The position numbers and the translations under genes were made by a program. Shown here one piece after another: positions 11,116-32,759 of a stretch of DNA of 64,000 nt. Numbering within the stretch: the stretch's first letter is position 1; the number at the start of each line of letters is the position of its first letter. Location: the NCBI RefSeq assembly GCF_036429475.1, contig NZ_CP144124.1, positions 124,001-188,000 of the forward strand, read 5' to 3'. Source of the stretch: Halalkalicoccus sp. CGA53. Its GTDB lineage: Archaea > Halobacteriota > Halobacteria > Halobacteriales > Halalkalicoccaceae. A model generated the notes under the pieces. It did no database searches, had not been told where the DNA came from, and was given only the letters and a program-made list of their open reading frames with translations.

Positions 11116-14100
11116 TCAGCGCGTTCCTAAGAGCTGCGTGAGCGTCGTTTCGATTTCTGTTCGGAGCGTGTGGAGTTCTGCTGCAGGGACCACTCGAGTT
11201 TCGGCTGTACTCTCTTCGGTGAAATAGAGTGACAACTTCACATCTTTTGAGGGATCGTTCTGATTCAAAGCAACAGCGTATGCTTCTAACTGGGGCCAGT
11301 AGTACCGAGCTAACTCAGAACTCGTTCGCTGAGAGAGACTGTTCGTCTTGTAATCGATGATGTGGTAGCTCTCTGGGGTGACGATCAAGTGATCAATATC
11401 ACCGACGATCTCATGAGCTTCAAACTGTGCTCTAACGGATAGCTCATCATGCGTAGACAGAACTGAGTCTGACGCATGGTATGTGTCTACATGTTCAATC
11501 GCTCGTGTTGTCTGCTCGAGGATCTGCTCGATATCTGATTCGGTGGGTTTCTCGCCTGCTCCTTCGCTCAACTGATAAACCCGATCTCTCCGGTCCGATC
11601 TTGGGGGGCGACGCTCACACAGTCGGTGTACGATCGTTCCGAACGTAGTCGGTGAAAGCCCGTCGTAATCGGTCTGGGTAGGTTCACCTGCTGAGGTAGC
11701 CGCACTCTCTTTTGCGGGTTCGTGTGCGAATATGTCGTCAGAGGCGTCCGCTGCTACGTGCTTACAGTACTGAGTCGCAGAGAGAATCCTCGGCGTTTCG
11801 TACGCCGGTGGAACAGGGACCTCAATCATTGGGGAGGCTTTCGTATCCTCAGTGTCGATAGCACGCCACTCTGCTACCGGTCGCGGTGGAAGACGAACCG
11901 TGTACCGAGCGCCATCGAGCGTCAGCTCAGTCGCGTACGTGTCCGGTAGTGACGTGAGAATCTCGCTTTCCGATGGACAGACCACCGGCTGAACCCACGC
12001 TTGCCAGCATTTCGCTTCCGAGGACTCATCAAACGTCTCGAACTGAATTCTCCTATCCTCGCCGAATTCGAGCTCGCTCACTCCGCTGAAAATGAGGTGG
12101 TCTCGGACACGCGTCAATGCGACATAGAGCGTTCGTCGGTACTCTGCACGCTCTCGTCGATCGGCTTCTCGTTTGACCGCTCGTCGAGCGATGGTGTCGG
12201 ATTTCTTGTACGGATCACTTGGATCAGGCGCTTTGATCCCGACGAGCGGTTCGGAGACGTCGCTTTGGTCAGGGGAAACTGAATTAAAGTAGACCTGGCC
12301 GTTGCCGTCGATAGCACGACGCTGATTAAACTGTTGGTCGAGATCAGGGACGACTACGATCGGAAACTGAAGTCCCTTCGAGGAGTGGACCGTACGGATC
12401 TCAACCCCGTCGGAGTCCTCAGGAATGGTTGCTTCGCCGGCATGGCTGTCGACTTCAAGCCGACGTTCGATAAGCGTGAGAAGCTGTGAGGCGGTCTTCA
12501 CACCTCCCTCCTCCCAGGAGCGGAGTTGTTCTCGGAACCGATTAACGTTCACTGCCGCCTGTCGTGGGCGTTCATCAGCACCGATCGCAGCGAGATATCC
12601 TGTCTCGTCGATCACCAGAGAGAGAAGTCGTCCCCAGGGGAGCGTGCTCGTTTCGGAGGGAGTACCGCTTGTTGCAGCACAAATCCGCCACTCACAGAGC
12701 AGTTCGTATGCTTTTCGTAGCTCTCCATCAGCAGTTTCAAGCGCACTCCAGAGTGTACGTTTCTCCGGGTCCGTTCGCTCGGTATCCGACTCATCTAACT
12801 CCGATTCGCTTCCCGCCGGTTCGATAAACAACTCGGCAAGCGTCTCGTCAGTGAACCCGAATAGGGGAGATCGAAGAATGCCATACAGTGCGATCTCGTC
12901 GTGGGGGTTTTCAAGAACTCGGAGGAGATTAATCAGAGCAGTGATCTCCGGTGTATCGTAGAAGCCGGTTCCGGAGATCGTCACGTAGGGGATATCGAAC
13001 GTATCGAGTGCTCGTTCATAGGCCTTTAATCGATTTCGAGTGCGGAGTAAGATCGCTACGTCTCGTGGTTCTGCCGGTCGGGATTGTTTAGTCTCTTCGT
13101 CATACACCATCGGTGGCTTATCGAAGAGCCGAGTGAGCCTGGCAGCGATTGCATGCGCCTGTCGTTCACCCGAATCCTCGAACTGTGGTGCACTCTCTAA
13201 GTAGCCTGGTTCGTGCAGTGCCTCGATATCGTCATCGGGGACAACGAGATACTCGACAGTCCCGTCGATCTCGGAGCCATCGATCCGTGCCTCTGTCAGC
13301 GGTTGTGGTTTCGCTTCGAACGGTTCGTACTCCTCCCCCTCTGGAGAGAACACGTGCTCGAACAGCCCGTTGAGGAACTCAAGCGTTGGGGAGACCGTTC
13401 GGAAGTTGCTACTGAGCTCTGTGTCGACGTCCGATGAGCCGAGTAACTCCTCGCGAGCCGTCGCAAACGTCGTCACATCCGCCCCGCGGAACGAGTAGAT
13501 ACTCTGTTTCTCATCGCCAACGAGGAAGACGTTGAGCGCTTCTGGATCGAATGACTCACCATCCGGTGTTGCGAGAAGGCGGATCAACTCCCATTGAAGC
13601 AGATCGGTATCCTGCATCTCATCGACCATTGCGAAGGTGAATCGACCACGAAGCTCTGATCGTACCGTAGAATTCGTCCGAAGGAATCGAACAGTGATCT
13701 CGATGAGATCGTGATAGTCGAGGGCATTTCGCTCTGCTTTCTCTTCTTCGTAGGCGGTGAAGACCGTTCGAAAGACACGAGCGAGCGCAAGAACATACGG
13801 AGCGCTGTTGCGTTCGATTGCTGCGTCCTCGAGGTAGTCTATGGATGCCGGGTCGAGATGATTGAGTATGACGGATACCGAGTCTTCGAGTTGCTGGCGC
13901 TCGCTCTCTTCGTTCCATCGAGATTTCGCTCCGAAGTACCGGTAGTCTTGGCCGTATACCTCGCCGTCACTCGTCGTTAATGCATCAGCAAGATCGTTCA
14001 GCGCCCATTGTTTTTCGAGTATTGCAGTCTGTTCTTCAAACGGTGCATACGATGTCTCGATGTCGAGCAGGCGTTTCGCTCGCTCCCAACCTGCATCTCC

Positions 14101-14946
14101 ATCGTCTACATCCGGACCTACACGAGCGAGCTCTCGGAGCGACGTGAACGCAGCGTCAATACGTGGATCCTCGAATACTGTTTTTGCTCTCTCTGGTGTA
14201 ACCGGGTGAAAGCGCTCCCAAATATACTCGAGATACTCTTCTTCAGTGCTGTCTTCCCACCGATCGAGCCAGTGAACGCTTACCGGGCGTTCATCAATGA
14301 GCGATACGAGTATGTCTTCGAGTTGGCTTCGCTTCCAGAGCCGTGCCAATCGCTCGATATCTGGACCATCCGAGTCGAGTAAGTGCTCAACAGTACGTCG
14401 AACGACCTCACGGCTGAGAAGATCTGCATCCGTTTCATCGAGGGTATCGAAGTCCGGTTTGACCGGGACATCGGTGATATGCTCGCGGAGGAGCCTGGCA
14501 CAGAATGCGTGTATCGTGTGGATATACGCGTCTTCGAGATCGTCTTTGTACTCTCGCCAGGTCTGATACTCACTCGGTCCAGCTGTGTCGAGCTTCTCAG
14601 CTATTGCTTCCCGGATCTTTCGTCGAAGATCGGTTGTTGCGTCCTCCGTAAATGTGATCGTGATTATCTCTGATGGACTCGTATCCGGACGTTCTTCGAG
14701 AATCCGGAGATAGCGCTGAGTGAGCGTCGTCGTCTTTCCTGTTCCAGCACCAGCGGTAATCGCGAGATTTCTATCGAGTTCTAACGCAGTCTTCTGCTCT
14801 TCGGTAAGCTCGAATCCCGCTGATTCGGATTCATCTTCGCTTTCAGTCTCTCTTTTTTCCCCATAATCAGAACCGGAGTCGGACTCAGAGTTCGAGCCAG
14901 ATTCGAACTCGTCATCGAGATCGGTTCGTTCACTCATCGGCATCAC
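11116..14946 (-). CDS. AddA-like UvrD/Rep helicase-nuclease (pair 1, subunit A)
   Basis: A 1276-residue SF1A helicase fused to a nuclease. After an acidic, Ser/Asp-rich tail of about 45 residues comes the Q motif (LTEEQKTALE), Walker A AGAGTGKTTT at residues 65-74 and motif II MVDEMQDTD at 440-448. GDEKQSIYSFRGAD (motif III), IRTVHSSKGLQFPIV (motif V) and LYVALTRVRDHLIF (motif VI) follow. The C-terminal PD-(D/E)XK nuclease shows GDIDHLIV and IIDYKTNS and looks intact. A QYC cysteine is present near the start of the nuclease part. The start overlaps the end of the B-like gene, so the two are coupled. AddAB processes DNA ends in bacteria; in archaea it is uncommon and usually acquired. Likely role: exonuclease attack on linear foreign DNA or break repair. 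Confidence 0.88.
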   Translation of the reverse strand: MMPMSERTDLDDEFESGSNSESDSGSDYGEKRETESEDESESAGFELTEEQKTALELDRNLAITAGAGTGKTTTLTQRYLRILEERPDTSPSEIITITFTEDATTDLRRKIREAIAEKLDTAGPSEYQTWREYKDDLEDAYIHTIHAFCARLLREHITDVPVKPDFDTLDETDADLLSREVVRRTVEHLLDSDGPDIERLARLWKRSQLEDILVSLIDERPVSVHWLDRWEDSTEEEYLEYIWERFHPVTPERAKTVFEDPRIDAAFTSLRELARVGPDVDDGDAGWERAKRLLDIETSYAPFEEQTAILEKQWALNDLADALTTSDGEVYGQDYRYFGAKSRWNEESERQQLEDSVSVILNHLDPASIDYLEDAAIERNSAPYVLALARVFRTVFTAYEEEKAERNALDYHDLIEITVRFLRTNSTVRSELRGRFTFAMVDEMQDTDLLQWELIRLLATPDGESFDPEALNVFLVGDEKQSIYSFRGADVTTFATAREELLGSSDVDTELSSNFRTVSPTLEFLNGLFEHVFSPEGEEYEPFEAKPQPLTEARIDGSEIDGTVEYLVVPDDDIEALHEPGYLESAPQFEDSGERQAHAIAARLTRLFDKPPMVYDEETKQSRPAEPRDVAILLRTRNRLKAYERALDTFDIPYVTISGTGFYDTPEITALINLLRVLENPHDEIALYGILRSPLFGFTDETLAELFIEPAGSESELDESDTERTDPEKRTLWSALETADGELRKAYELLCEWRICAATSGTPSETSTLPWGRLLSLVIDETGYLAAIGADERPRQAAVNVNRFREQLRSWEEGGVKTASQLLTLIERRLEVDSHAGEATIPEDSDGVEIRTVHSSKGLQFPIVVVPDLDQQFNQRRAIDGNGQVYFNSVSPDQSDVSEPLVGIKAPDPSDPYKKSDTIARRAVKREADRRERAEYRRTLYVALTRVRDHLIFSGVSELEFGEDRRIQFETFDESSEAKCWQAWVQPVVCPSESEILTSLPDTYATELTLDGARYTVRLPPRPVAEWRAIDTEDTKASPMIEVPVPPAYETPRILSATQYCKHVAADASDDIFAHEPAKESAATSAGEPTQTDYDGLSPTTFGTIVHRLCERRPPRSDRRDRVYQLSEGAGEKPTESDIEQILEQTTRAIEHVDTYHASDSVLSTHDELSVRAQFEAHEIVGDIDHLIVTPESYHIIDYKTNSLSQRTSSELARYYWPQLEAYAVALNQNDPSKDVKLSLYFTEESTAETRVVPAAELHTLRTEIETTLTQLLGTR

Positions 14947-17900
14947 CTCCGAGGGACTTTAGATACGAACGATTCTCCGCTTGCTCGGGAACGTACACTG
15001 TGTTCTCTGTCTCAGTGATCGTCTCAACAACGTCTCGACGACGATGCGGTCGAACATCACAAATCTCACTGAAATCACAGTACCGACAGCCCGCGGTTTG
15101 TTCGTCAACTATCGTCGTGTGAAAGACGCCGTCTCCGATTGCCGCTGCAATCGTACCGAGTCGCTCAGGAATCACCTCGTTGTGAAACCGTTCGAACTCC
15201 ACTTCTGGCTCATCGGTACGATCGAAGTACTTTCTAAGCGTCCAGGATCGGGTACTCGAAAGCGTCGCCGGAGGCTTTATTTGATAGAACCCGCTGTCGA
15301 CCGTTTTTATTGAGTTCCCATAGTGCTTCTCGAGTGCCGGTTTCGCGGCCGCCGCGTACAGCGGGAGCTGGAACTCGATTCCATCGAGAGTGTTTTTCAC
15401 CTTTGGATTCCCAGTTTTGTAGTCATAGACGATCCCTTCCGGAGCGCCATCATCATCAGCTTTCACGCCAGCTCGGTCGATAACCCCACGAACGGTGATC
15501 GAATCACCACTCGGTGTCTCAAGAGCCAGGTGTTCCTCATCGGCACCCACACCGAGTGAGGCCTCAAACAGCATTGGGGTATCCGACCGGTTCTCATACT
15601 CTTCTTCGAGAAATCGAATCAAGAGCCCCCGATCATCGCCGCCATGAGCTCGATTCTCGCCGTAGTATGGATTCTCCTCGGGGGTCGCTAAGCCAGCGAG
15701 TAGCTGTTCGAGCCACTGGCGGTAGAACTGATCGTTGTAGGGGAGCGAAGCGTCGTCTATCTCGACGAAGGCAGCGCTCGCTAATTTTGACTCCAACTCG
15801 GAGATCGAATGCGCTCGGAGGTCGACGGGTTCTCCTTGTTCGGATTGAAGCTCGGTAAAGAACCGCTCGAGGATATCGTGAAGCAATGATCCGAGTTCCA
15901 ACGCATCCGGTTCGAGGTTGTACTCCTCCGGTTCGTCGAAATCGAGTACCTGATTCAGATAGAACTTGAACCCACACTGAGCGTATTTTTTCAGACGGGT
16001 AGGGCTGTAGGGCTCTCGTATTGCTGTTGGATATAGCGACTCGATCCGTTCAGGGTCGATCTGTGCGTCGTGTTCTGTAAGACCCGCAGAAGCTCGGTTC
16101 GCAGTACAGTCGGTGCCCGCCTGTAGCCACTTACCACAATCAGCGGTGAAGTCTGCACGTTCGATCGCAGCATCGACAGCCGCATGCATCTCAGTCGGTG
16201 AACCGAGCTGGTTGACCGCTCGCTGAAGATCCTCTCGAGTGCAGATCGATTGCTGGGGTTCGGTCGCTTCGAGGGTGCTTACGCGACAGAGCTCATCGAG
16301 AATCGATGATTCGAGGAGCGGTTCGTCAGTGAAGGTGGCCTTCGGTGTCGAGAGAACGACCGAGTCAGCACTCGATACCAGCGTCGCAAACTGATACCGC
16401 GCTTCGAGACGTGGCTGACTGAACGACAGTGAAGAGAGTTCGTCAACCAGCGTTTGGAAGTAAATCGGGCGATCCGGCCGGATTGGGAAATCAGCTTCCG
16501 TAAGTCCCGCCAGATAGAGATGAGAGTACGAGCTCAGATATGCGTCTTCAAGCCCGATGATGCTGACGACCCCGCGAGTCGGTTGTCGTGGCGGTGGAAT
16601 CCGGAGTGTCTGTAGCTCTTCATCGATCAGTTCCACCGGATCATCGACGTCCGTAAGCTCACAAACGTACGCAGTGGAGTCGAGTACCTGCTGGATCTGC
16701 CCGAACGATCGATGTTCCATCTGGGCATCGTATACGTTCTGCTCGGATTCGAGGTCCGCGAGTGCGTCTTCGATTCCGAGACGGTCGATGAGGGTCTCGA
16801 ACGTCTGAGCGCCATCGGTCCCGGGGAGTGAACTTACCTCTGAACACGCATCGAGAAAGTCGTCGAGCACCGCTTTCGTATCGGCGTCGAGTTCACTGAG
16901 AAAGACCTCGACATCGGTCGTTGGTAGTAAGCGAGCACGTCGTGAGAGTTCGGCCTCGGATGTACCAAGCCCGTGGGTAAGTGTAACGAAGGGATTCGCC
17001 AGGAGCTGGGTGAAGATGTCTGAGCGCTGTACTCCGGTACATAGCTCGAGGAGATCCAGTACTGCCCGGCCGACAGCGGTCTGATACAGGAGCTTGTTAA
17101 CGACGAGTGCCGTTGGGATATCCGCCGCTTCGAAGTAATCTTGGAAATGCTCTCGGTATGAGATCAACCCCGGGATCGCAACGACGATTTCGGTTGGATC
17201 AACGCCGTCCGCGAGCTTTGCGCGGATCTGCCCTGCTATCTGTCTAATCTCTCGATCCGGAGTGGCTGCAGTCTGCCATTCGATCGATGCGTCTGAGAGA
17301 TCGATGCGTCCTGTGACGTTCGGATCATACATCGCACCGGCGCTCGCAGAGAGCGCCGTCGGTTGTTCACGTTTTAGCTGGTGGAACTCTGCGTCTAATG
17401 TTTCATAGAACTCGAGGGCGTCTTTGATCGCTTCGTTCGCCCCACTTTCCACTGATGCGTCTGTATCGACTGCCGGGAGGATGACGACCATTGGCAATGA
17501 CCCGGCTAATTTCTCGATGAACGCTCGCTGAAGAGTGGTCAGTTCGTAGAATCCCGAGAGTACAACGACATCAACGGAGCTGAGCAACGACTCGATGTCG
17601 ACCTCATCGCTGAGGAGACGCTCATAGGCCCCACCGAGTGTATAGAGCCCATCGGTTAGCAGATCGGTCCTGAGAGTCGCGTATCGTTCATACGCCGTGA
17701 GGACAGTCTCAGACGCTTCTGAGGAGACTCCTTGTGAATCGATGAGTGATTGGATAGTAAGTGGTGTATTGTATCCGTCCGCTTCGAGGGCGTTGAACAG
17801 CTCCATGATCGACTCGCGGTGGAGATGGGGGTCATCGAGTGGGACCTCACCGTCTATATCTCTGAGCGCCTGTGCGATAAGCTGACGACGGTTGTTTATC

Positions 17901-18154
17901 GAGAGCAGATCTGCCGGTCCGAAGCGTCGTTCGTAGCACTCCTGGATTACGCTCGAGAACGTGAGTAGGTGTAGGCGAAGAGGTGGGTGATCTTCCGCCC
18001 ACGCGTCAGTAATCTCTCGATGATGATTCGCATTGTCATCGATATAGAGAACGCTTTCGGGGTGGACTCCTGCGAGCGATTCAGCGCGGTTGAACGCTTC
18101 TTGACGAAGTGACTGAAATTCAGATCCTAAGAGAACGGTCGGAGGTGGACACAT
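14930..18154 (-). CDS. AddB-like PD-(D/E)XK nuclease / inactive-helicase subunit (pair 1, subunit B)
   Basis: About 1074 residues from the ATG at 18154 (MCPPPTVLLG); the frame extends to 18220. The N-terminal half resembles an AddB/RexB-type helicase domain with no clear Walker A. The C-terminal nuclease carries YAQCGFKFYLNQVL, GVIDRAGV and GIVYDYKTG with LPLYAAAAK. It ends with CRYCDFSEIC. Together the four cysteines match the Fe-S clamp of AddB nucleases, and the D/DYK residues look intact. A TATA-like AT-rich stretch at about 18172-18184 suits a leaderless start at 18154. The stop overlaps the A-subunit start by 17 bp. Divergent from the nuclease-like gene at 18300. Confidence 0.85.
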   Translation of the reverse strand: MCPPPTVLLGSEFQSLRQEAFNRAESLAGVHPESVLYIDDNANHHREITDAWAEDHPPLRLHLLTFSSVIQECYERRFGPADLLSINNRRQLIAQALRDIDGEVPLDDPHLHRESIMELFNALEADGYNTPLTIQSLIDSQGVSSEASETVLTAYERYATLRTDLLTDGLYTLGGAYERLLSDEVDIESLLSSVDVVVLSGFYELTTLQRAFIEKLAGSLPMVVILPAVDTDASVESGANEAIKDALEFYETLDAEFHQLKREQPTALSASAGAMYDPNVTGRIDLSDASIEWQTAATPDREIRQIAGQIRAKLADGVDPTEIVVAIPGLISYREHFQDYFEAADIPTALVVNKLLYQTAVGRAVLDLLELCTGVQRSDIFTQLLANPFVTLTHGLGTSEAELSRRARLLPTTDVEVFLSELDADTKAVLDDFLDACSEVSSLPGTDGAQTFETLIDRLGIEDALADLESEQNVYDAQMEHRSFGQIQQVLDSTAYVCELTDVDDPVELIDEELQTLRIPPPRQPTRGVVSIIGLEDAYLSSYSHLYLAGLTEADFPIRPDRPIYFQTLVDELSSLSFSQPRLEARYQFATLVSSADSVVLSTPKATFTDEPLLESSILDELCRVSTLEATEPQQSICTREDLQRAVNQLGSPTEMHAAVDAAIERADFTADCGKWLQAGTDCTANRASAGLTEHDAQIDPERIESLYPTAIREPYSPTRLKKYAQCGFKFYLNQVLDFDEPEEYNLEPDALELGSLLHDILERFFTELQSEQGEPVDLRAHSISELESKLASAAFVEIDDASLPYNDQFYRQWLEQLLAGLATPEENPYYGENRAHGGDDRGLLIRFLEEEYENRSDTPMLFEASLGVGADEEHLALETPSGDSITVRGVIDRAGVKADDDGAPEGIVYDYKTGNPKVKNTLDGIEFQLPLYAAAAKPALEKHYGNSIKTVDSGFYQIKPPATLSSTRSWTLRKYFDRTDEPEVEFERFHNEVIPERLGTIAAAIGDGVFHTTIVDEQTAGCRYCDFSEICDVRPHRRRDVVETITETENTVYVPEQAENRSYLKSLGGDADE

Positions 18155-18299
18155 ACTATATGCCGGTAATGATAGTAAAAATAGTTTTGCGATGTATTCA
18201 AATAGAAAACTCGTTGACAAACCTTTTTAAGCGAAAGTCGCGAATTCCGCAGAACACTATCGCTGGACTATTTCAACCAGGAATGAATTGCCGTCTTTG

Positions 18300-19124
18300 A
18301 TGGTAGAGTATCCGAAACCGAATCTCGATGAGTTACCCGAATTGTACACAGACCTCGATCATTTGTTAGTGGATGTAGAACAAACCCTCCGAGAGCATTT
18401 CGAAGTAAGAACAAAAAATGGGGTAGACATGATTTTCTTTGGAGAAGCTGACCAGGATACATACTTAGAGGCGATCCACGCTGACCGGGATACAATGATT
18501 CCGTTCTTTCAAAAGATAGCGGGGGTCCCTGATCGCGAACTCGAACGTCTCTATGGTGTCGCGAATTTCAATCGATTTCGTACCCGAAAATCTGACTTTT
18601 ACACTGAGGAGGAAGCAATCATATTTGCCAATGCCATGGTTGACCTCTTACCTGATAATCTCTATCTAGAGACACCACTCTATACGTTCGTGAAAATGTG
18701 GGAGAATGATCAGAGACGACACGTCAGGGCACGGTATGAACGAGATGTACGAGAATATCTTGATTCTTGTGGTTTTTCAAATTTTAAGGGAAACTCACTT
18801 CCTGGAGAACCTGACTTTGTAGTTCCAAATACGGAGCCATACGAAGTGATTGGTGAGGTCCGGGTGATACAGCCTCGGGATTACAAAAAAAGATTCAAAG
18901 AATTTGGTTCAGAGGCCCGGGCTGCGGAGATCCATTTCCCCAATGCGAAGTTTGTAGCCGTTGCGCATGTTGGGCGGCAGATAGAGCGACGAAACAGAGC
19001 GGAATTACGTAAGATGTTGTATGAATCCAGTGCGGCTGAAATCCATGCTGCTTTTTTCCAAGACGAATTAAATCTTCTAGTCAATAAATTAGAAGAATGG
19101 GGGATCTCACGAAGCAAGCGATGA
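18300..19124 (+). CDS. Predicted restriction-endonuclease-like protein next to a methyltransferase
   Basis: A 274-residue protein. The N-terminal ~130 residues are helical (LYTDLDHLLVDVEQTLREHF; FRTRKSDFYTEEEA; YLETPLYTFVKMWENDQRRH). The C-terminal part has PGEPDFVVPNTEPYEVIGEVRV, with D172 and E186-V-R188 in the places of a PD-(D/E)XK core. The last catalytic residue would be Arg rather than Lys, so activity is uncertain. The methyltransferase gene starts about 60 bp downstream on the same strand, which suggests a restriction-modification-like pair. The frame opens at a TTG at 18288; the ATG at 18300 is preferred. It is AT-richer than its neighbours. Confidence 0.6.
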   Translation: MVEYPKPNLDELPELYTDLDHLLVDVEQTLREHFEVRTKNGVDMIFFGEADQDTYLEAIHADRDTMIPFFQKIAGVPDRELERLYGVANFNRFRTRKSDFYTEEEAIIFANAMVDLLPDNLYLETPLYTFVKMWENDQRRHVRARYERDVREYLDSCGFSNFKGNSLPGEPDFVVPNTEPYEVIGEVRVIQPRDYKKRFKEFGSEARAAEIHFPNAKFVAVAHVGRQIERRNRAELRKMLYESSAAEIHAAFFQDELNLLVNKLEEWGISRSKR

Positions 19125-19152
19125 AGCCGGTCACACTCGAGTGATATATACA

Positions 19153-19160: not shown

Positions 19161-19183
19161 CTAAGGGGCAGCAGTTTTAGCAG

Positions 19184-20545
19184 ATGAAAGGGCATGTTCC
19201 AACCCCACCTGAACTTGCAGATTCGATGGTAGAGAAGCTCTTCTCAATTCGCACTCCGAAAGAGGGCGATCGGGTTCTCTATCCCGGAATGGGAACCGGA
19301 CCGTTTGTTGCAGCCGTTGAGCGGTTTTGCGAACGTGAAGGCATGGCAGTGCCCGATGGTATTGGAGTCGAACTCGATCCGGAACTGCTCGCCGAGTCAC
19401 AAGAACTTCACGCCGAACGTACAGTGGATATTATGGAACGTGATTTCCTTCGCGATCTCTCTGATTTGGACTCATTCGAATATATCATTGGAAACCCACC
19501 ATATGTTCCAATAGAAGACCTTGACGAGAAGGAAAAAACGCGATACAAAGGTGGATTTGACACCGCTACCGGTCGATTCGATCTCTATGCTCTCTTTTTT
19601 GAACAGGCACTCACGAAGCTCACTGACGATGGTGTTCTCGTCTTCGTTACACCGGAGAAGTTCGAATATGTAGGTAGTGCAGCGCCACTGAGAAAGCTTC
19701 TTCAATCGTACTCAATCGAGGAGATCGAGCATGTGGCAGAAGACTCGTTTGATGGGGTCACTGCTTATCCGACGATCACCACGATCACGCAAGAAGGCTC
19801 AGAGGAGACTCGGGTCGTTCGTCGAGACGGCACCTCTTCGTCAGTTGTTCTGCCGAAAGATGGGTCCAGTTGGGCGAGTCAGATACGGGGAGTAGATCTT
19901 TCTGACCTCGAGACAGGCGTGACGCTTGGAGAGGTCTGTAGCCGAATTAGCTGTGGTGTCGCCACTGGAGCAGATGGGCTTTTTGTCCAGAACCGGGAGG
20001 AAGTTCCACCGCAGCTTCTCGATGAGTGGACGTACCCCACCACATCGGGAAAGCAGCTTCAGTTGAACGACGGCCCCGATTGCGGAAGCGTGTTCATCTC
20101 TCCATATGCCAAAGATGGTTCGCTTATCGATGAAGACGAGTTAGGTGATTTCGGCCAATGGGCCGAGATGCACAGAGACCGTCTCGAAGATCGATATTGC
20201 TATCAAAACGGTCACCGAGCGTGGTACGCCTGGCACGAACGCCCACCGTTGGATGATATACTCCAACCCAAAATCCTTTGTCAAGATATTGCCAAGGAGC
20301 CAAAGTTCTGGATCGATGAATCGGGTGAGGTCGTTCCGCGTCACACGGTTTACTATCTCATTCCAGAAGATCACGTCGACCATCGAGAGCTCGCGGAGTA
20401 TCTTAACGGACCGGAAGCACGCGTTTGGTTGGAGGCAAACTGCCAGCGAGCAGCAAACGGCTACTACCGGCTTCAATCGAAGGTGCTGAAAGAACTCCCA
20501 GTACCCCGTGAGTTTGGAGCAGAGTATCAGGCAACGTTGGTTTGA
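19184..20545 (+). CDS. N6-adenine DNA methyltransferase (class I, NPPY type)
   Basis: A 453-residue SAM-dependent DNA methyltransferase. Motif I is VLYPGMGTGPF at residues 31-41, the acidic end of strand 2 is GVELDPELL, motif III-like is MERDFL, and the catalytic motif IV NPPY is at 104-107. The C-terminal half (CSRISCGVATGADGLFV; YYRLQSKVLKELPVP) looks like a target-recognition region of the Eco57I/type I kind. It methylates adenine at N6 in a specific sequence. Paired with the nuclease-like gene upstream, it probably marks self DNA. A TATA box suits its ATG at 19184. Confidence 0.88.
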   Translation: MKGHVPTPPELADSMVEKLFSIRTPKEGDRVLYPGMGTGPFVAAVERFCEREGMAVPDGIGVELDPELLAESQELHAERTVDIMERDFLRDLSDLDSFEYIIGNPPYVPIEDLDEKEKTRYKGGFDTATGRFDLYALFFEQALTKLTDDGVLVFVTPEKFEYVGSAAPLRKLLQSYSIEEIEHVAEDSFDGVTAYPTITTITQEGSEETRVVRRDGTSSSVVLPKDGSSWASQIRGVDLSDLETGVTLGEVCSRISCGVATGADGLFVQNREEVPPQLLDEWTYPTTSGKQLQLNDGPDCGSVFISPYAKDGSLIDEDELGDFGQWAEMHRDRLEDRYCYQNGHRAWYAWHERPPLDDILQPKILCQDIAKEPKFWIDESGEVVPRHTVYYLIPEDHVDHRELAEYLNGPEARVWLEANCQRAANGYYRLQSKVLKELPVPREFGAEYQATLV

Positions 20546-24417: not shown

Positions 24418-25411
24418 ATGTCTCGAAAGCCGCTCCGAGGCGTTGTTCCGATGTTCGGCGGAGCTACCAGCTACGTTGATACCCTTGACAGAATTCTTCG
24501 ATTTGTTCACACCCATCAGCCGAGTGTTGATGAGTTAGTTGGATGGCATAGAGGCACGTTTGAGCAGGTATCGAGTAGAGAGTCAATTGCGCGCCGAGTT
24601 GATTACCTCGAAGATGTTGGATTCATTGTTTTAGAGGGGACAGCGTGGAAACTTGGTCAAGAAGGGAAGGCGTATGTTACGGACCAGACGACCGATACAC
24701 TTCTCGAAATCATGTGCAGGCGGAACGTTGGACTCCGTAGTTTGCTTTATGCACTTTCAGTCGGCCCAATGACGATCAGAGAGATCAGTCAGCAACAGCT
24801 TGATACTCATCCTGATCTTGGATGGGATCCAGCGAACACAGATATGGCAATTCAGCGGGTAAACTGGCTTCGAAGTCTCGGCTTGGTTCGGAAAGAGGAC
24901 AATAGTTATGTTCTCACTGAAGATGGACATGGATTCATAAGCGACTCCGTTGAGCAGTGGGCTGGTTCGTCGTACAATGTAGCTTGCGCTGATTCGAGCG
25001 CCATCGCTACCGGTGTTTATGAAACGACCGTACAGGCTCGCTCCATGGATCCCGAATTTCGAGCTACAGTACTGTCTGAGTACAATACGACCTGTCCTGT
25101 TTCCGGAATCGATCATCCTGCATTGCTGGACGTAGCACACGTGCTTTCTTGGAGCGAATATCCAAATATCAGAGCCGATCTGAGGAATGTGATTCCCTTG
25201 GGTAAAACACATCATGCCGCGTTCGATCGAGGACTGTACCATCGATGAGGAGTACCGGATTCAGGTGAACCCGGAGTTCGAGACCCAAAGTGAAATCCTA
25301 CAACGAATCCTTATCGGCCGGGCTGGTGAGACGCTAACGATGTCTACGTTAAATCCGGATCGAAATTATCTCCAGCGCCATAATTCGACGCTGAAATGGA
25401 TGTCGGGATGA
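24418..25411 (+). pseudogene. HNH endonuclease with winged-helix domains, frameshifted
   Basis: The first frame (from the ATG at 24418) encodes two winged-helix-like repeats (SIARRVDYLEDVGFIVLEG; IQRVNWLRSLGLVRKED) and then an HNH domain: TCPVSGIDHPALLDVAHVLSW, RNVIPLGKTHHAAFDRGL. It stops at 25248 right after GLYHR. A second frame, open from before 25214, continues exactly where the family goes on: TIDEEYRIQVNPEFETQSEI to HNSTLKWMSG at 25411. An indel near 25232-25240 has therefore split the gene. The HNH catalytic residues lie before the break, so a shortened protein could keep them, but loss of function is more likely. It was probably a site-specific or modification-dependent nuclease. Confidence 0.75.
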
Positions 25412-25668: not shown

Positions 25669-28600
25669 ATGGGTGTATTTGTCGAACAGGGGTCACTGGA
25701 ATCGTTTCTCATTGATCGCTGGAATAAGTCATCACCGCACGAGTTAGGCGATACTGCGAACGGGCTCTGTCTCCTCGAGGGACGAATCGCCCGACAGAAT
25801 CTCATCAGGACCCTTGTCTCTGATTCGGTCCCTCCTGAGCAGGCTGCAACGTACTCATCCATCGAAGATCTCGCGAAAGTGCTCGTAAGGGAGCGTTATG
25901 GACAAGCCAGCATCCTGAATCGGCATATACATGTTCGGCTACTCGGAGAAGTAATTGAATCCGCCAGAGATGGCCATTGCTCAGATGAACTGCATTCGTT
26001 TGCCAAGATCGAGCGACTGACCGAAGATACCTATCTGGAGGAGTTGTTTGCAGAGCTCAACGAGTACTACCGCTGTACAGACGCAGGGGAAGACTTCGAT
26101 GATATCCTGCAAATAGCTACGGGACTCTCTGATGGCTTCGCACGACACAGAAGTGAACGGACACTCAAAGCGTTCGATGCTATCCATGATGATCTCCTCG
26201 ACCGAACGGCTTCGCTTCCAGATGGCGTTTTCCTCTCTCGGAGTCACTTAGTTCGAGAAGCTCGGCATGTTTTCTCCGACGTTTGGTCAAGTGCGTTCGC
26301 TCACATCGAGTGGGTCGCCGTTGCGACGGTCAATATCCTCGACAATCCAACGCTCCGATTTTTCGCTACCATTGCAGAGCTAGAAGGTCTACCGGACATT
26401 CACTTCTTTTTCGAGGAAGGGACCCGGGCGACTCTTTTCGATCGTTTAGCGAATGTCGGCTTAGAGCCCGTACCCCGTTCTTCAGGGTCCAAGTGGGATT
26501 CAGACACGAGCGCTGCAGGGAACGCGATGCTCGAGGTTGCCACGGGAGGCTTCCACGGAGATCACCCGCCAGAATCGGTTGAGTTAATAGAGGCACCGGA
26601 TCGTCGACGTGAAATCGAGCGTCTCGTCTCAGAGGTACGCGAGTTACTGGCTGGTGATGTCTCACCACAAGAAATGCTTGTTGTTGCTCGGAACGTCGAT
26701 CAGTATCGACCGATCATCGAGGACGTATTTACGAACAATGAAATCCCGTACCACGTTGAGACTCGCCGCCCAATGGCATATCTCCCATCCTATCGATTCG
26801 TGAAGGCGACCGTTGATCTAATAGAGGCTGCAGTCACCGATCGCCTCGATGTCTCCCATACAGAGGTGACCGATCCGCTCCGACTCGGGTACTGCCATCC
26901 CGACCACGCAATAGACAATGAGGGGCAGTGGCCAATGTCCGATAGCCGTTTTCTCCGTATAGAGCAACAACTGCACGCTGCTGAACAGGACGAAGGACCC
27001 CGCTCTATTGAGGACTGGTTATCGTTCGCAACTGGAGAGCAGAGCAATGGCGATGAGTGGAGTCAGTTAGCTGTGTTTCTCGAATGGGTACTCGAACAAA
27101 AAGAGACGCCGCCTGTGAGAGGTGCTGAGCTTCGAGAATTTCTCCAGGACCTCTTGTGGCCACATCTATGGTGTATCGCAAACGATCCGATACAGAGTCC
27201 ATCCGGTCCAGCTGTCGATCCGACGAGGACAGATATTAACAGCGAACACCAGACCTCCCATGTAGAACGGGTTCGAGACAGAGGGGAAACGCTCGAGATC
27301 TACTACGATCACATTCTCGAACTGTTCGACACTCTCAACCCCAGCTGGAATGTGGTTGGACAAGCCCTCGGTGACGTCATCGGTTCCGAGCCCTTCTGGT
27401 CGACTAATCGGGACGGTAACGCGGTCACGATCAGTGATGCGGGGCTTATCGACTTTCGAAAAGCCGAGCATCTTTTCATTGTCGGGTTGTCAACTGAGGA
27501 GTTCCCGATTGAGCTCTCAACCCCGACATTTACGCATAAGAAGCTACACGAAGCGACTGCACGTGCAACGAGAGCGGAAGAGAGCGACGTCCCCTATCTG
27601 TACTACGAATCAAAACTCGATCAATACGAGCAAGACCTCGATAGTTACGCAGCGGCCCTCAGTACCTGCACTGGTGAGCTCACACTCACGCAGTTCTATC
27701 TCGATTCCGAGAATGACCCAGTAGCGTGGTCACCGTTCGTTGACTTCCTCGATCCTGATCCGATAGAAGACGAGTACGTCACACGAATTCGACTTGATGA
27801 GTGGCTCCCAACGCCACGAGATGGGGAATCATGGCCGGATACCTGGAAGCGAGCATCTAAGCGAGATCTCCTGCGCTCGTACGTGTTTCATGCTGCGGAT
27901 GTAGAGCACACGGCCGGGCCTCGAATAGAGCAAGCCGAGTTTCACCATCTCGCGTTTCGAACCTCTGTAGATCCACTCGAACAGTTCGTTGGCCCACGCA
28001 TCGATCGCTACATAGAACCGATTTACTCGATATTCGTCGATCCTGACGAACCAGCATTCGACGGTGCGCTCTCGCTCGAGGATATTGTCGGTGGTCCGAT
28101 GAGATCGCACGAGATCGATCTCTTCGCTCAGTGTGAGCTCAAGTTCTACTACTATCAGCTGATGTTTAATTTCGATGGAGATCAAATCGAGCGCGATCGA
28201 ATTCCCGAACAGTATTGTGAAGTACCAACGAGTCGGTTTGGCGAGCTACCTGCAGTTATCCACAGTCAACAGGCTGATGAGAGCTTCAGTACAGGGATGA
28301 AACGGGTCATCTCCGACTTACTACCCGACCGTCAGCATGATCTCGATAGCTTTGCATCCAGGGGTGAATTGCGTGATTGGTTCCAGGATCTTGAGCCAAA
28401 ACTCCCCCGTGAACTATTGCCCTCACTGTACGCTGAGTGGGAAGAGGTACAACGAGAACTCGACCACAGTATCGATCGTGGGTGGAATTGGGAGGACGAT
28501 CCCGATCCAGTACCGATCAGCGGGACCGAAGTAGTGCTCCCCCCACACAGAATCGACACGCTCTCTGATGGCTCGCTTCCGGTATTCTCGGTTCGTGAAC

Positions 28601-29088
28601 GACATTACGCAGAGCGAGCGCTGAAACAGTGCTGGACCGGAGGGAATCGCCCTTCTCGGGACGAGCAATGTGACGATCTTTGTCAAAGTTGTGAGCGATA
28701 CGATGACTGCTCCTATACAACGAAGCATATCCTGGATCACCGACTACACACGGCTGCAATACAAAGCAATGAGACCTCAGGATTCCTACTATACGAACAA
28801 GGTCAGACACGGCCAGATGCCAGACAAGGCCATCTCGTTGTAGATGATAGCGTGCCGTATGGGGACAGTGAGTCTGTCGAACCCTCATTGAGACGGATTA
28901 CTACTGACGAGTACAACGACACTGTTTCTCGCTGGCGGAGCGATATCGAACATCACGTCCGGCGCCTACGTCCAAGTCCCGGGGTCGAGTTCAGAACAGA
29001 GCCGGCCTTTGTCACCGACTTGAATGGCTGTGAGAACTGCGTGTACCGCGAATTGTGTCGAGTGCCGCTTCAGGAGGACCGACGATGA
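25669..29088 (+). CDS. AddB-like subunit with Fe-S cysteines but degenerate nuclease residues (pair 2, subunit B)
   Basis: A 1139-residue AddB/RexB-like protein. The N-terminal two thirds resemble a helicase-derived scaffold (IELIEAPDRRREIERLVSEV; MLVVARNVDQYRPIIEDVF; FIVGLSTEEFPIELSTPTF). The C-terminal part has FAQCELKFYYYQLMF (first cysteine, residue ~822) and ends CENCVYRELC, the AddB-type Fe-S clamp. Where the nuclease core should show GRID plus (I/V)DYKT, only PPHRIDTLSDGSLPVFSVRE is found, so the catalytic Lys and Asp look lost. An extra cysteine group, CDDLCQSCERYDDC, lies just after. The ATG of the A subunit overlaps the TGA (ATGA). It appears to be a structural or DNA-scanning subunit. 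Confidence 0.82.
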   Translation: MGVFVEQGSLESFLIDRWNKSSPHELGDTANGLCLLEGRIARQNLIRTLVSDSVPPEQAATYSSIEDLAKVLVRERYGQASILNRHIHVRLLGEVIESARDGHCSDELHSFAKIERLTEDTYLEELFAELNEYYRCTDAGEDFDDILQIATGLSDGFARHRSERTLKAFDAIHDDLLDRTASLPDGVFLSRSHLVREARHVFSDVWSSAFAHIEWVAVATVNILDNPTLRFFATIAELEGLPDIHFFFEEGTRATLFDRLANVGLEPVPRSSGSKWDSDTSAAGNAMLEVATGGFHGDHPPESVELIEAPDRRREIERLVSEVRELLAGDVSPQEMLVVARNVDQYRPIIEDVFTNNEIPYHVETRRPMAYLPSYRFVKATVDLIEAAVTDRLDVSHTEVTDPLRLGYCHPDHAIDNEGQWPMSDSRFLRIEQQLHAAEQDEGPRSIEDWLSFATGEQSNGDEWSQLAVFLEWVLEQKETPPVRGAELREFLQDLLWPHLWCIANDPIQSPSGPAVDPTRTDINSEHQTSHVERVRDRGETLEIYYDHILELFDTLNPSWNVVGQALGDVIGSEPFWSTNRDGNAVTISDAGLIDFRKAEHLFIVGLSTEEFPIELSTPTFTHKKLHEATARATRAEESDVPYLYYESKLDQYEQDLDSYAAALSTCTGELTLTQFYLDSENDPVAWSPFVDFLDPDPIEDEYVTRIRLDEWLPTPRDGESWPDTWKRASKRDLLRSYVFHAADVEHTAGPRIEQAEFHHLAFRTSVDPLEQFVGPRIDRYIEPIYSIFVDPDEPAFDGALSLEDIVGGPMRSHEIDLFAQCELKFYYYQLMFNFDGDQIERDRIPEQYCEVPTSRFGELPAVIHSQQADESFSTGMKRVISDLLPDRQHDLDSFASRGELRDWFQDLEPKLPRELLPSLYAEWEEVQRELDHSIDRGWNWEDDPDPVPISGTEVVLPPHRIDTLSDGSLPVFSVRERHYAERALKQCWTGGNRPSRDEQCDDLCQSCERYDDCSYTTKHILDHRLHTAAIQSNETSGFLLYEQGQTRPDARQGHLVVDDSVPYGDSESVEPSLRRITTDEYNDTVSRWRSDIEHHVRRLRPSPGVEFRTEPAFVTDLNGCENCVYRELCRVPLQEDRR

Positions 29089-32000
29089 GCAATGAAAACA
29101 TCTCAGAAAACCTTGACCGAATTGAGGAGATAACTACCCTTGCGACGGGACCTGCAAGTAATCAGCTCCAACCGGACCAGGCGGCTGTATTCCTCGAGTT
29201 CCATGAGAATTCGGGACGGGTTGTGGTGGACGCGGGTGCAGGTACGGGAAAGACGACAGTGCTTATTCGAACGGTCGCCGAAGCAGTCGTCCGTGAGGTC
29301 GATAATGAGGGAAGTCCATTCGAGCGGATTCTATTGACTACTTTCTCGAATGACGCCGCCAACGAGCTCAAGACACGGCTCAAAGCACAACTTCGCGAGC
29401 ATGATGCCCACAGTCAAGATCCCCTGCCACGATCAGTATGGCGGGAGATCGAGACTGCAGCGGATATCGGTACGATCGATAGCTTCTTTCACGACTTGAT
29501 AGGTGAGATCGCGATCGATATCGGATTGCCTCCGGATTTCGAAGTTCGAGGTCAGCTCGAGACCGAGACGCTCCTTGATGAGATATTCGCACATCTTCAG
29601 AACGAGCATCCGGGCGAACTTCGCCGACTCCAAACTGCCTATTCTCCTGAGGAGTGGCGAGAATATCCACCCAAATCGGTACGTGAGATCGTCTACCGAA
29701 TTCAGCAGAAATGTCGTGAGTTCTGTTGGTCGGTCGATAGTGCAGTCGATTCGCTCTGGATGAGCTTTGAGGATATGCATGCCGGAGAAGACCGCCCTAC
29801 AGATCTCGCAACGATCGATCGCATACTCGAAATGCAAATCGGCGAGGGCGAAACGGTTGACCCTCTTGACGGAGACATGGAACAACAACTCATCGACCAT
29901 GTCCGAGATACGTACGATCGGTCGAGTGCGATTATCGAGGACTTTGAAACCGTCCTCCGGACGTTCAACGAGCAGTATGATGAGCTGACTCGATCAAGTG
30001 GACTTCTCTCACATACAGACGTAACGTATCTCCTGTGGGAGGCGCTAACTGAGGACCCGGATGGGGTATTGGCGCAGAGTCTTAGTGAACGCTATGACTA
30101 CGTCTTCATCGACGAGTTTCAGGATACGAGTCACGCGCAGTGTGAGGTGCTCTCACACCTAATAACCGAAGAGAAAGACGGCACCCAACTCATGCTGATC
30201 GGCGACGTCAAGCAGTCGATCTATGAATGGCGCTCTGCGGAACCGAATATTTTCAACGACATTATCGACCATGCTCGTGATGATTCGATATCCGATTGCG
30301 ACCCGGCTCCGCATGTCGAAGCAGCGGGTATCACGTACCTCCCACTGGTATCGAACTTTCGAAGCCATCCGCACATTATCTCGACGGGGAATCGAGTATT
30401 TGCGGACATCTTCGCTGACGATGGTCGTGGAAGAATCGGAAGCATCGACATTGACTATGTTCCGCTTGAAGCTCGGCGCCCGAATACGGAGCCGGACGAC
30501 CCACACGTTCACATTCTGGACATGGGAGGGGAAACTAAGCGCGATTTCTGGGTAACGGGGGAGGCTCAACAGGCAGCTGAAACGATTCTCTCGATAATAC
30601 ACGGAGAAACGGCAGGGATAGCTGTCGATCGCTCACCACTGAACTCTGAGCAAACACTCGAAGATCCTGAACCGGGAGATATTACGTTTTTATTCAGAGC
30701 ACGAAGGCACATGCACATCTACGCTGAGGAACTACGGAACAGAGGGCTTGAAGTCTCGGTCGATGCATCCGACGATCTGTTCGAACAGCCAGAAGTTCGG
30801 TTGATGATCGACATACTCGATTGGTTTGCAAACCCCCATTCACGACCCTCCCTGGTACGTATCCTCCGATCGCCCCTTGTCGCGCTTTCTGATGAAACGC
30901 TTCGAGCATTAGCGAGTGAGCAGTACTATCTCCGAGCGCTGTTGGATGATTGGCCAGATACCCTCCCGATAGAGGATCAACACCGACTCGAAGGACTAGC
31001 TACTCTTCGGAATGACCTACGATGGGGACGTGAAACTGCGAAGTCCGACCTCGTGTACAAGATCCTCAGGCACTCAGGATTTGAGACGGTTGTTCTCGCA
31101 GATACTGACGCATTAGAACGCTATGGAAATCTGTGGCTGCTCGGGGAGATCGTGGATCAGTGGGAAGAAGACGAGTTACTCCCATACCGGGAGTTCGTTG
31201 AGCGTCTTACGACAATCAGAGATAGATCAGTTATGGAAGATCCGGATTATACGACGACTCGTCTCGCGGACGAGCAAAATCGTGAGACCATCACCCTTAC
31301 GACAGTCCATGCCTCGAAAGGGCGTGAGTTCTCGATCGTGTTTCTGGTGGATCTCCTCGCGCGATCTAATTGGCCACGAACCCAACTTGATCGCCTCTTA
31401 ACGAGTCGAACGCATGGGATGGCACTTCGTCCGCGCCAAGGTGAGACGCCCTTCCCGCCGAGACTAAACATTCCTAGTCCCGATGACGACAATGTATGGC
31501 TGAGCGAAGATTATGATGCTCAACCCCCCTCGTGTACTGGCCCAATCTGGCTGTCGGATGCCCGAGTCGAGCGAACTGGCCAATTCGAATATCCGAATCC
31601 TCTGAACGCACATTTGAAAGAACGGGAAGCAGAATTCTGGCGGATGCTCTACGTCGGGTTCACTCGAGTCCGTGACCATCTGTTTCTCGGGCTTGGACAC
31701 AGTGAAGTATATAAAGGAGAATGGAACACATGGATGGCACCACTTCGGGACCAGTTGCTGTTAGGGTCCGACGAGATTGGAAACGAAGAGATACGACTCC
31801 TTGACACACCTCAGAATGACGTTAGAGGAGTTACGGAAGCACCGGATAGCGTCCCAATCGGCATCGATGATATCCCGTTAGAAGCTGTCGAACCCGAGAG
31901 AACGGTTGAAATAGATGTTGATGATGCAGCAGTCTTCTTGGAGAATAGCGGACCAGATGAATCGGTCGAGGAAGTCCCGTTTCTACCGGAAACTGTCGAT

Positions 32001-32759
32001 GCCTCCGGTGTCCACCATCTACTCGAGTGTCCTCGACGGTTCCAATACAGTGTCGTCCAAGGGCAAAGCTCGATCCGTTACGAGACGGAGGCTGTAGCCG
32101 CTCCAGGTGAACTCCCACCAAAGGTCTGGGGTGATATCGTTCACAAGGCACTGGCGCTTTGGCACCAAAATGAACTCGAATTCAGGCGCTACCTTTCGGA
32201 CCTCGATGAGACAGTCGCTGACACCCTCAGAACAAGCGTGTTAAAGAACTACCGGCGGACCTCTACCCGACAAAGCATCAATTCACATGCCGATGAGGTA
32301 GTGATAGAACATCCTGTGAGGGCACTCCTCGAGGTAGATGGGCATCGAATCCCCTTCTATGGGAAGATCGATCTCCTCTATCGAGACGGTAGCGACTGGA
32401 TGATAGTCGATTTCAAAACTGGTGAAATTCCCGACACTGGTTCGTACCACCACGAGCAGTACCGTCGCCAGTTGACAGCGTACGCGTGGCTCGTTCAGGA
32501 AGTCTACGATATCACGATTCAGGATGCAAAGGTAGTATATGTCCACCCAGAATACGATGAAGACGCGTTCAGTCCCGACATTGAGGCCTTCGAGCGGTCG
32601 GTTGCGGACTCGATTAACTCGTTGAAGATTGATAAGGTGGGTCTCGAGGCACGTCCAGATCCAAAGCCGTCAGAAATCGATGATAGCCCGCCAAGCGGAA
32701 CCAGATGTGGATCATGCCCATATGCAGCCAGCGTCGGCGGACCCTGCAAGTACGGGTGA
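29085..32759 (+). CDS. AddA-like UvrD/Rep helicase-nuclease with its own Fe-S-type cysteines (pair 2, subunit A)
   Basis: A 1224-residue SF1A helicase-nuclease from the ATG at 29085. Walker A DAGAGTGKTTV is at residues ~49-59, FIDEFQDTS (motif II) at ~341-349, GDVKQSIYEWRSAE follows, and LTTVHASKGREFSIVF and LYVGFTRVRDHLFLG are motifs V and VI. The nuclease domain has FYGKIDLLYRDG and MIVDFKTGE, apparently intact. A cysteine in LLECPRRFQYS and three at the C-terminus (CGSCPYAASVGGPC) suggest an Fe-S clamp, which in bacteria is found on AddB. The gene is coupled to the B gene. Probable role: processive degradation of linear DNA, as defence or repair. Confidence 0.88.
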   Translation: MSNENISENLDRIEEITTLATGPASNQLQPDQAAVFLEFHENSGRVVVDAGAGTGKTTVLIRTVAEAVVREVDNEGSPFERILLTTFSNDAANELKTRLKAQLREHDAHSQDPLPRSVWREIETAADIGTIDSFFHDLIGEIAIDIGLPPDFEVRGQLETETLLDEIFAHLQNEHPGELRRLQTAYSPEEWREYPPKSVREIVYRIQQKCREFCWSVDSAVDSLWMSFEDMHAGEDRPTDLATIDRILEMQIGEGETVDPLDGDMEQQLIDHVRDTYDRSSAIIEDFETVLRTFNEQYDELTRSSGLLSHTDVTYLLWEALTEDPDGVLAQSLSERYDYVFIDEFQDTSHAQCEVLSHLITEEKDGTQLMLIGDVKQSIYEWRSAEPNIFNDIIDHARDDSISDCDPAPHVEAAGITYLPLVSNFRSHPHIISTGNRVFADIFADDGRGRIGSIDIDYVPLEARRPNTEPDDPHVHILDMGGETKRDFWVTGEAQQAAETILSIIHGETAGIAVDRSPLNSEQTLEDPEPGDITFLFRARRHMHIYAEELRNRGLEVSVDASDDLFEQPEVRLMIDILDWFANPHSRPSLVRILRSPLVALSDETLRALASEQYYLRALLDDWPDTLPIEDQHRLEGLATLRNDLRWGRETAKSDLVYKILRHSGFETVVLADTDALERYGNLWLLGEIVDQWEEDELLPYREFVERLTTIRDRSVMEDPDYTTTRLADEQNRETITLTTVHASKGREFSIVFLVDLLARSNWPRTQLDRLLTSRTHGMALRPRQGETPFPPRLNIPSPDDDNVWLSEDYDAQPPSCTGPIWLSDARVERTGQFEYPNPLNAHLKEREAEFWRMLYVGFTRVRDHLFLGLGHSEVYKGEWNTWMAPLRDQLLLGSDEIGNEEIRLLDTPQNDVRGVTEAPDSVPIGIDDIPLEAVEPERTVEIDVDDAAVFLENSGPDESVEEVPFLPETVDASGVHHLLECPRRFQYSVVQGQSSIRYETEAVAAPGELPPKVWGDIVHKALALWHQNELEFRRYLSDLDETVADTLRTSVLKNYRRTSTRQSINSHADEVVIEHPVRALLEVDGHRIPFYGKIDLLYRDGSDWMIVDFKTGEIPDTGSYHHEQYRRQLTAYAWLVQEVYDITIQDAKVVYVHPEYDEDAFSPDIEAFERSVADSINSLKIDKVGLEARPDPKPSEIDDSPPSGTRCGSCPYAASVGGPCKYG

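Follow-up and report, generated by a model that had tools for sequence, protein, structure and literature searches.

Do two AddAB-like helicase-nuclease operons that bracket a set of putative defence genes in a haloarchaeon form one immune system, or are they separate machines serving different partners? This question is raised by positions 11,116 to 32,759 of a 64,000-nucleotide stretch of Halalkalicoccus sp. CGA53 (assembly GCF_036429475.1, contig NZ_CP144124.1, forward strand), which we call the window and which comprises bases 124001-188000 of a 279,642-base contig in a genome of two contigs and 4.04 Mb. The two pairs are referred to as AddAB1 and AddAB2, and their coordinates are given in Table 1 together with those of nearby genes. 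On balance, we lean towards reading the stretch as part of a defence island with two separate AddAB-type machines, in which AddAB1 would degrade DNA as a portable partner for several defence systems of haloarchaea, and AddAB2 would be a separate, single-nuclease machine.

Identity and distribution of the two pairs

An earlier note on this DNA, made from the sequence alone, had described two B-then-A operons pointing outwards, and our analysis confirmed this layout: all four AddA and AddB reading frames are open, the B and A genes overlap by 17 bases in the first pair and by 34 bases in the second, and the family assignments agree. UvrD helicase domains and a PD-(D/E)XK nuclease were found with Pfam in both AddA1 and AddA2, whose genes are the two strongest of the four UvrD-helicase places in the window genome; among the B subunits, the PD-(D/E)XK match of AddB1 is clear (Table 1), whereas that of AddB2 (E 0.085) fails the cut-off. 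In NCBIfam, the A subunits of the two pairs match the AddA model best and the B subunits the AddB model, with all scores far below the curated cut-offs, and Bacillus subtilis AddA is the best PDB relative of AddA1 (E 7e-52) and AddA2 (E 4e-36). The single AddB1 sequence matches no solved structure and a family profile was needed; B. subtilis AddB is the first PDB match for the family profiles of AddB1 (E 2e-11) and AddB2 (Table 1). As the note had also held, the two pairs differ. AddB1 and AddB2 are homologous but distant (hhalign 99.6%, 17% identity over 684 columns), and AddA1 and AddA2 share 25% identity across their best 695 columns. Judged by these identities, AddAB1 and AddAB2 are old, separate lineages, and a recent duplication is not their origin.

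Our set of Halobacteria comprised 391 genomes. AddB1 matches were found in 93 of them, and after 8 genomes with weak or fragment-only matches were dropped, 85 genomes with 96 copies were kept (gene pieces merged, some copies partial). AddB2 matches occur in 30 genomes, of which only 11, the window genome included, have the gene at full length with E < 1e-100. In a 125-genome sample of the phylum, the AddB model matches 24 genomes at E up to 1e-3, all below its cut-off, and 18 of these fall outside the order of the window's organism. With the AddB1 family in 85 of 391 Halobacteria and these 24 matches in the phylum, AddAB-type genes are less rare in this phylum than the note, which called AddAB uncommon in archaea, would suggest. 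In single-protein scans of IMG/VR, which reach close relatives only, no relatives were found of AddB1, AddB2 or the protein of 278 amino acids (aa) encoded between the pairs.

Active sites

It is important to note that the motif patterns were widened, since their first versions were too strict (AddB1 nuclease core 19/93; Walker A 0 in all four sets), and that the AddA1 counts cover the 83 A genes that lie no more than 300 bases from an AddB1 gene, 6 further A genes being excluded. AddA1 carries a Walker A motif in 83/83 and a nuclease core in 82/83 cases, with the C-terminal cysteine set in 0/83; AddB1 carries a nuclease core in 89/93 and a C-x2-C-xn-C set in 92/93 cases, with Walker A in 0/93. 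The nuclease core and the cysteine set are both present in all 11 AddA2 proteins, and Walker A was matched in 9 of them. In AddB2, the stretch aligned to the nuclease core contains D-x-K or E-x-K in 0/11 proteins, and four cysteines are invariant in 11/11; the loose core pattern did match one AddB2 (G200), but about 85 residues beyond the aligned site. Since these counts differ between the pairs, AddAB1 is to be regarded, on its motifs, as a two-nuclease AddAB, and AddAB2 as a pair with one predicted nuclease, located on AddA2 and of the cysteine-bearing type otherwise found on AddB and Cas4.

Both pairs have an A subunit with superfamily 1A (SF1A) helicase motifs and a C-terminal PD-(D/E)XK domain, as expected of AddAB, and AddB1 shows the other hallmark of the enzyme, a B subunit with no working helicase and with a C-terminal Fe-S nuclease. 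AddB2 lacks this nuclease, its core being absent and its cysteines kept in all 11 proteins, and AddAB2 is therefore classed as AddAB-like and not as AddAB. B. subtilis AddAB (PDB 3u44, 4cej) resembles the haloarchaeal pairs in its B-A operon, its AddA motor with nuclease and its Fe-S-type AddB nuclease, and among solved structures it is the closest to all four proteins or to their profiles; the haloarchaeal pairs differ from it in falling below the AddA and AddB cut-offs, in often lying among defence genes and, for AddAB2, in having no AddB nuclease. RecBCD resembles AddAB2 in that the latter has one nuclease and a dead partner subunit, and the AddB2 profile touches RecC (E 0.009). It differs in that no third same-strand gene adjoins AddAB2 in the window, RecD itself not having been sought, and RecB is not known to carry the cysteines of the AddA2 nuclease. 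As a natural single-nuclease AddAB-like machine with its cysteine-cluster nuclease on the other subunit, AddAB2 would be useful for asking why there are two nucleases in AddAB but a single one in RecBCD.

UvrD-Cas4 fusions, which occur in several defence contexts according to Hudaiberdiev 2017 (PMC5704561), are a further parallel. In AddA2, an SF1 helicase is joined to a Cas4-like, cysteine-bearing nuclease, and at least one locus has a methyltransferase next to the AddA2 gene; this is a comparison of architecture only, and the pair differs in that all 11 AddB2 genes found have an adjoining AddA2 gene. In Natribaculum (L107, 12224-22983), AddAB2 and an N6 methyltransferase point away from each other, and the latter is also hit by type I specificity models; the arrangement resembles a restriction system in which AddAB2 replaces HsdR.

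Relationship between the two pairs

The earlier note had suggested one or two multi-gene defence systems, and the 21-kb stretch could be one conserved system in which two AddAB pairs enclose a core. Two genomes speak for this possibility: G259 also has outward-facing AddAB1 and AddAB2 operons about 6.5 kb apart (L065 1543-20000, continued in L066), and in G347 AddAB1 adjoins CARF and CARF-PIN genes with AddAB2 27 kb away, relatives of the McrB, HEAT and AddAB2 genes lying within the same 43 kb as AddAB1 in an order unlike that of the window. However, the window genome and G259 are the only 2 of the 391 genomes in which no more than 25 kb separates the two pairs, and the genes between the pairs of G259 (a small methyltransferase, a saccharopine-dehydrogenase-like protein, HTH and toxin-like genes, a hydrolase, a PLP enzyme and one small open reading frame) are unrelated to those of the window. 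In addition, 7 of the 11 genomes with AddAB2 contribute no AddB1 to the kept set. The check that the note had proposed, namely pair co-occurrence and gene order in haloarchaeal genomes, thus went against a single two-pair system, which we rejected; it is largely refuted and, in our estimation, highly improbable. Judging from these gene arrangements, the two pairs most likely do not form one conserved system. What survives of the suggestion is the recurrent link of CARF and CARF-PIN to AddAB1.

Defence neighbours of AddAB1

We read the surroundings of 94 AddB1 genes, that of the window among them, naming neighbours by Pfam, PADLOC or record annotation. Directly upstream of AddAB1 there is a BrxA gene in 5 copies and a BrxL gene in 5, with more BREX genes beyond; the further recurrent neighbours are prokaryotic Argonaute (pAgo), DUF499/DUF1156 genes, and CARF with CARF-PIN. 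The Argonaute neighbour matches the PADLOC pAgo model at E 4e-299, and Pfam Piwi matches at 5e-23 in one member and not at all in a diverged member. The CARF-PIN and AddA genes can be convergent and very close, with their ends 8 bases apart on a Halococcus plasmid and 5 bases apart on a Halomontanus plasmid. A methyltransferase motif is present in 24/93 AddB1 loci and 5/11 AddB2 loci, counts that have no baseline and are not used here as evidence.

CARF-PIN matches were obtained in 59 genomes, of which 7 with short, weak matches were dropped, leaving 52 genomes and 58 copies (at least 2 partial). For the BREX protein PglZ, 198 genomes match and 95 exceed the family cut-off; among the matches listed, places weaker than about E 7e-8 were dropped, and the 89 copies kept come from 83 genomes. 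The search for pAgo covered 80 of the 85 AddB1 genomes and 80 of the 298 genomes in which AddB1 has no match; a pAgo gene of G334 that was found as two pieces was counted once. An AddB1 gene is present within 10 kb of 13/58 CARF-PIN, 15/89 PglZ and 9/25 pAgo loci. By the same measure the partners are never close to each other: CARF-PIN and PglZ in 0/58, pAgo and PglZ in 0/25, and pAgo and CARF-PIN in 0/25 cases. CARF-PIN is thus near AddB1 (96 copies) in 13/58 cases versus 0/58 near PglZ (89 copies; Fisher p 1.1e-4). When only copies in genomes with both genes are counted, the fractions within 10 kb are 13/27 for CARF-PIN, 15/40 for PglZ and 9/25 for pAgo with respect to AddB1, and 0/22 for CARF-PIN/PglZ, 0/14 for pAgo/PglZ and 0/7 for pAgo/CARF-PIN. 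Co-occurrence at the genome level points the same way, as AddB1 is present in 24/52 CARF-PIN genomes (p 2e-5) and 35/83 PglZ genomes (p 2e-6), and pAgo in 23/80 AddB1 genomes versus 8/80 of those with no AddB1 (p 0.005).

A FastTree tree was built from 93 of the 94 clustered AddB1 reading frames (>850 aa), in which long branches make some placements unsure. On it, the minimum number of partner changes is at least 19 for the 22 BREX copies, at least 10 for the 12 CARF copies and at least 6 for the 8 pAgo copies. As reconstructed from this tree, the partners of AddAB1 have been swapped many times, in a count that is blind to gain versus loss. The window copy groups with that of L102 and with the pAgo-bearing G031 and G108, the window and L102 copies being on long branches.

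Several observations weigh against AddAB1 as a defence partner. First, the baseline is above zero at 25 kb, where CARF-PIN is near AddB1 in 18/58 cases versus near PglZ in 6/58, and pAgo is near AddB1 in 12/25, near PglZ in 1/25 and near CARF-PIN in 1/25; the pAgo distances, moreover, were measured in AddB1-bearing genomes only. Second, 48 of the 93 AddB1 copies have no labelled partner (BREX, CARF, pAgo or DUF499/DUF1156) within 8.5 kb, so many are alone or beside genes not recognised here. Third, in the window AddB1 and CARF-PIN have at least four genes between them, with no BREX or pAgo gene near: pAgo has no match in the window genome, and PglZ none in the window, its one below-cut-off match in the genome being on the other contig. 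Finally, CARF-PIN also occurs away from AddAB1, near VWA, HEAT and ADP-ribosylglycohydrolase genes or other systems, and a ParA gene directly follows AddA in 6 loci, which is also compatible with a role in plasmid upkeep.

Both pairs might instead be plasmid-borne recombination or repair enzymes, engaged in end resection and replicon upkeep, which happen to be inserted into the variable islands that also hold defence genes. In bacteria AddAB acts in repair, and the copies with no labelled partner and the ParA loci fit this explanation, as do the 43 PLSDB plasmid records with an AddB1 match (39 of them over most of the protein). For AddB2 there are 3 matching plasmid records, 1 of them over most of the protein. 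However, shared islands should also bring CARF-PIN, BREX and pAgo together, and within 10 kb these were never found together, yet AddB1 lies near all three; the partners also change often on the AddB1 tree. For these reasons we give the repair explanation limited credence.

Proposed role of the two machines

According to the reading we favour, AddAB1 would combine one motor (AddA1) with two nucleases (in AddA1 and in AddB1, the latter with an Fe-S-type cysteine set) and would most likely load onto DNA ends, unwind the DNA and shred it. It would serve as the portable degradation partner of whichever recognition system adjoins it: BREX, Argonaute, DUF499/DUF1156 methylation systems or CARF/CARF-PIN in other genomes, and in the window CARF/CARF-PIN, perhaps with the methyltransferase and the 278-aa protein. 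The neighbouring system would pick out foreign DNA by methylation, a guide or some other signal and supply a mark, nick or break, and AddAB1 would finish the DNA so marked or nicked. The CARF-PIN ribonuclease may provide a second, nucleotide-triggered back-up layer that acts on RNA. AddAB2 would be a rare, separate pair with a similar job, AddB2 being a nuclease-dead scaffold and all cutting being done by AddA2. The gene content, the active-site motifs and the recurring, changing neighbours are observed; that the components act together, that they serve defence and in which order they act is inferred.

A more far-reaching proposal, which we put forward tentatively, is that AddAB1 is an interchangeable DNA-destroying effector common to unrelated haloarchaeal immune systems (BREX, Argonaute, CARF-PIN and DUF499/DUF1156) and carries out for BREX a nuclease step that has no known enzyme there; alternatively, the neighbours may guard AddAB and fire when viruses inhibit it. 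The way in which BREX arrests viruses is not known to be settled, and its core is not known to include a nuclease. A helicase-nuclease that has repeatedly been rejoined to BREX, Argonaute and CARF-PIN operons would be a candidate shared effector that can be tested in organisms with genetics (Haloferax, Haloarcula).

Relation to described systems

AddAB1 copies directly beside BrxA or BrxL genes link the family to the BREX systems of Halobacteria, from which the window differs in having no BREX PglZ; AddAB is not known to be a part of BREX. In some BREX operons of haloarchaea, we also observed a TATA-binding-protein gene between the methyltransferase and PglZ (L118 2639-3178, L188 6636-7175).

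For Argonaute, PMC11442185 describes haloarchaeal pAgo-PLD systems (APAP), some with a helicase gene near; these resemble our loci in that a haloarchaeal pAgo has neighbouring helicase genes, and differ in that the term AddA is absent from the main text of that paper and in that the window genome has no pAgo match. UvrD and PD-(D/E)XK proteins near pAgo are described in PMC6299218, RecBCD or AddAB as a source of guides for pAgo in PMC12948488, and two CARF-PIN families in PMC4012209. The covered parts of PMC4158269, PMC6063281 and PMC6343036 contain nothing on a link between AddAB and defence, and no description of a link of AddAB1 to haloarchaeal BREX, Argonaute or CARF was found in the open-licence PMC literature, in the portions covered; parts of the AddAB1-defence link may already be in print. 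Gabija was considered and rejected, as the GajB matches reflect shared UvrD motifs and no GajA was found among the 19 window proteins scanned.

The trigger of the CARF proteins was also considered. The Cas10 palm domain (PF22335) was found in 0/80 genomes, 52 of them with CARF-PIN and the window genome among them, although a diverged Cas10 could escape the model; the control search was positive in 5 of 14 known genomes, none of them Haloferax. It is therefore likely, with the same reservation about a diverged Cas10, that these genomes lack the usual source of the CARF ligand, and type III CRISPR is doubtful as the trigger. CARF and CARF-PIN accompany VWA, HEAT, ADP-ribosylglycohydrolase and AAA ATPase genes in several haloarchaea (L189, L201, L202), with or without AddAB. 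In Salinigranum (L204 11964-21050), genes for an ATP-dependent helicase, a PD-(D/E)XK nuclease, a UvrD helicase, a PLD protein and Piwi stand in a row beside a CARF-PIN match.

Genes between and around the pairs

Table 1. Genes of the two AddAB-type pairs and of their surroundings in the window (aa, amino acids).
Feature	Positions	Strand	Evidence
AddA1: SF1A helicase and PD-(D/E)XK nuclease, no C-terminal cysteine cluster	11116..14946	(-)	Pfam UvrD/PDDEXK_1; TIGR02785 E 4e-112; best PDB 3u44_A; motifs
AddB1: AddB with no Walker A, intact nuclease core and four-cysteine cluster	14930..18220	(-)	PDDEXK_1 E 7.7e-29; profile to 3u44_B; motifs
278-aa orphan protein, possible PD-(D/E)XK endonuclease (motif by eye only)	18288..19124	(+)	no family match
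N6-adenine DNA methyltransferase, Eco57I class, TaqI_C specificity domain	19184..20545	(+)	Pfam, PADLOC
97-aa open reading frame	20814..21107	(+)	no Pfam match
476-aa protein, ~190 aa in common with the middle of the McrB-like ATPase	21244..22674	(+)	sequence match; no family match
CARF-PIN protein, CARF_m1 clade	22773..23834	(-)	PADLOC PDLC01973 E 6.9e-32
Stand-alone CARF protein	23834..24322	(-)	PADLOC PDLC01972 E 2.3e-46
Winged-helix/HNH_2 nuclease protein	24346..25248	(+)	HNH_2 E 1e-9
AddB2: AddB relative with no nuclease core, cysteines kept	25669..29088	(+)	profile to 3u44_B E 8.5e-10; motifs
AddA2: SF1A helicase and PD-(D/E)XK nuclease with AddB/Cas4-type cysteines	29055..32759	(+)	Pfam, NCBIfam, motifs, PDB
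McrB-like ATPase (MrcB_N, EVE, AAA_5; 34147-38004) and 462-aa partner	32820..38004	(-)	Pfam

Two of the assignments that the earlier note had made for the genes between the pairs were upheld, namely the N6-adenine methyltransferase and the CARF/PIN pair, the latter through models of the CARF_m1 clade. The winged-helix/HNH_2 protein is an extra gene that the note had not listed. The McrB-domain protein of the note, of 476 aa, has no family match; what stands is a match of about 190 aa between it and the McrB-like ATPase (window 36160-36738, E 7e-17), in a region outside the Pfam domains found in that ATPase. In G136, a relative of the 476-aa gene (50%) is found some 10 kb away from AddB1 and 14 kb away from CARF-PIN.

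The 278-aa protein had been called nuclease-like, which holds in so far as a PD...ExR-like motif can be seen by eye; the protein matches no Pfam, PADLOC or NCBIfam family, and its PDB matches are to unrelated proteins at E 0.02 or weaker. One plasmid relative with 24% identity was found, and no relative of the gene among the AddB1 neighbourhoods read. Pattern scans of GTDB genomes with single proteins, which reach close relatives only, yielded no relatives of the 278-aa or 476-aa protein, and AlphaFold models computed with no alignments were uninformative for both (pLDDT 40 and 41, respectively).

These genes allow another, possible if doubtful, explanation: the methyltransferase and the 278-aa protein would be an ordinary type II restriction-modification system, CARF/CARF-PIN a separate dormancy module and AddAB1 a housekeeping-like degrader of cut ends, in loose adjacency. 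The methyltransferase family is certain, the 278-aa gene immediately precedes it on the same strand, and at least four genes lie between AddB1 and CARF-PIN. However, no nuclease family or fold was confirmed for the 278-aa protein, and CARF/CARF-PIN directly adjoins AddAB in other genomes.

Beyond the pairs, a DDE transposase gene (9116-9943) lies about 1.2 kb downstream of AddA1 and may have displaced an earlier partner gene. Relatives of the McrB-like ATPase and of its 462-aa partner stand side by side in G347. At window positions 39035-46335, a Type IIG/DrmMI-like methyltransferase is followed by an SNF2-PLD helicase, and G108 has relatives of the two upstream of its AddB1. Further on, at 51400-56328, a 1642-aa sacsin/NOV_C protein matches the PADLOC TmtA models.

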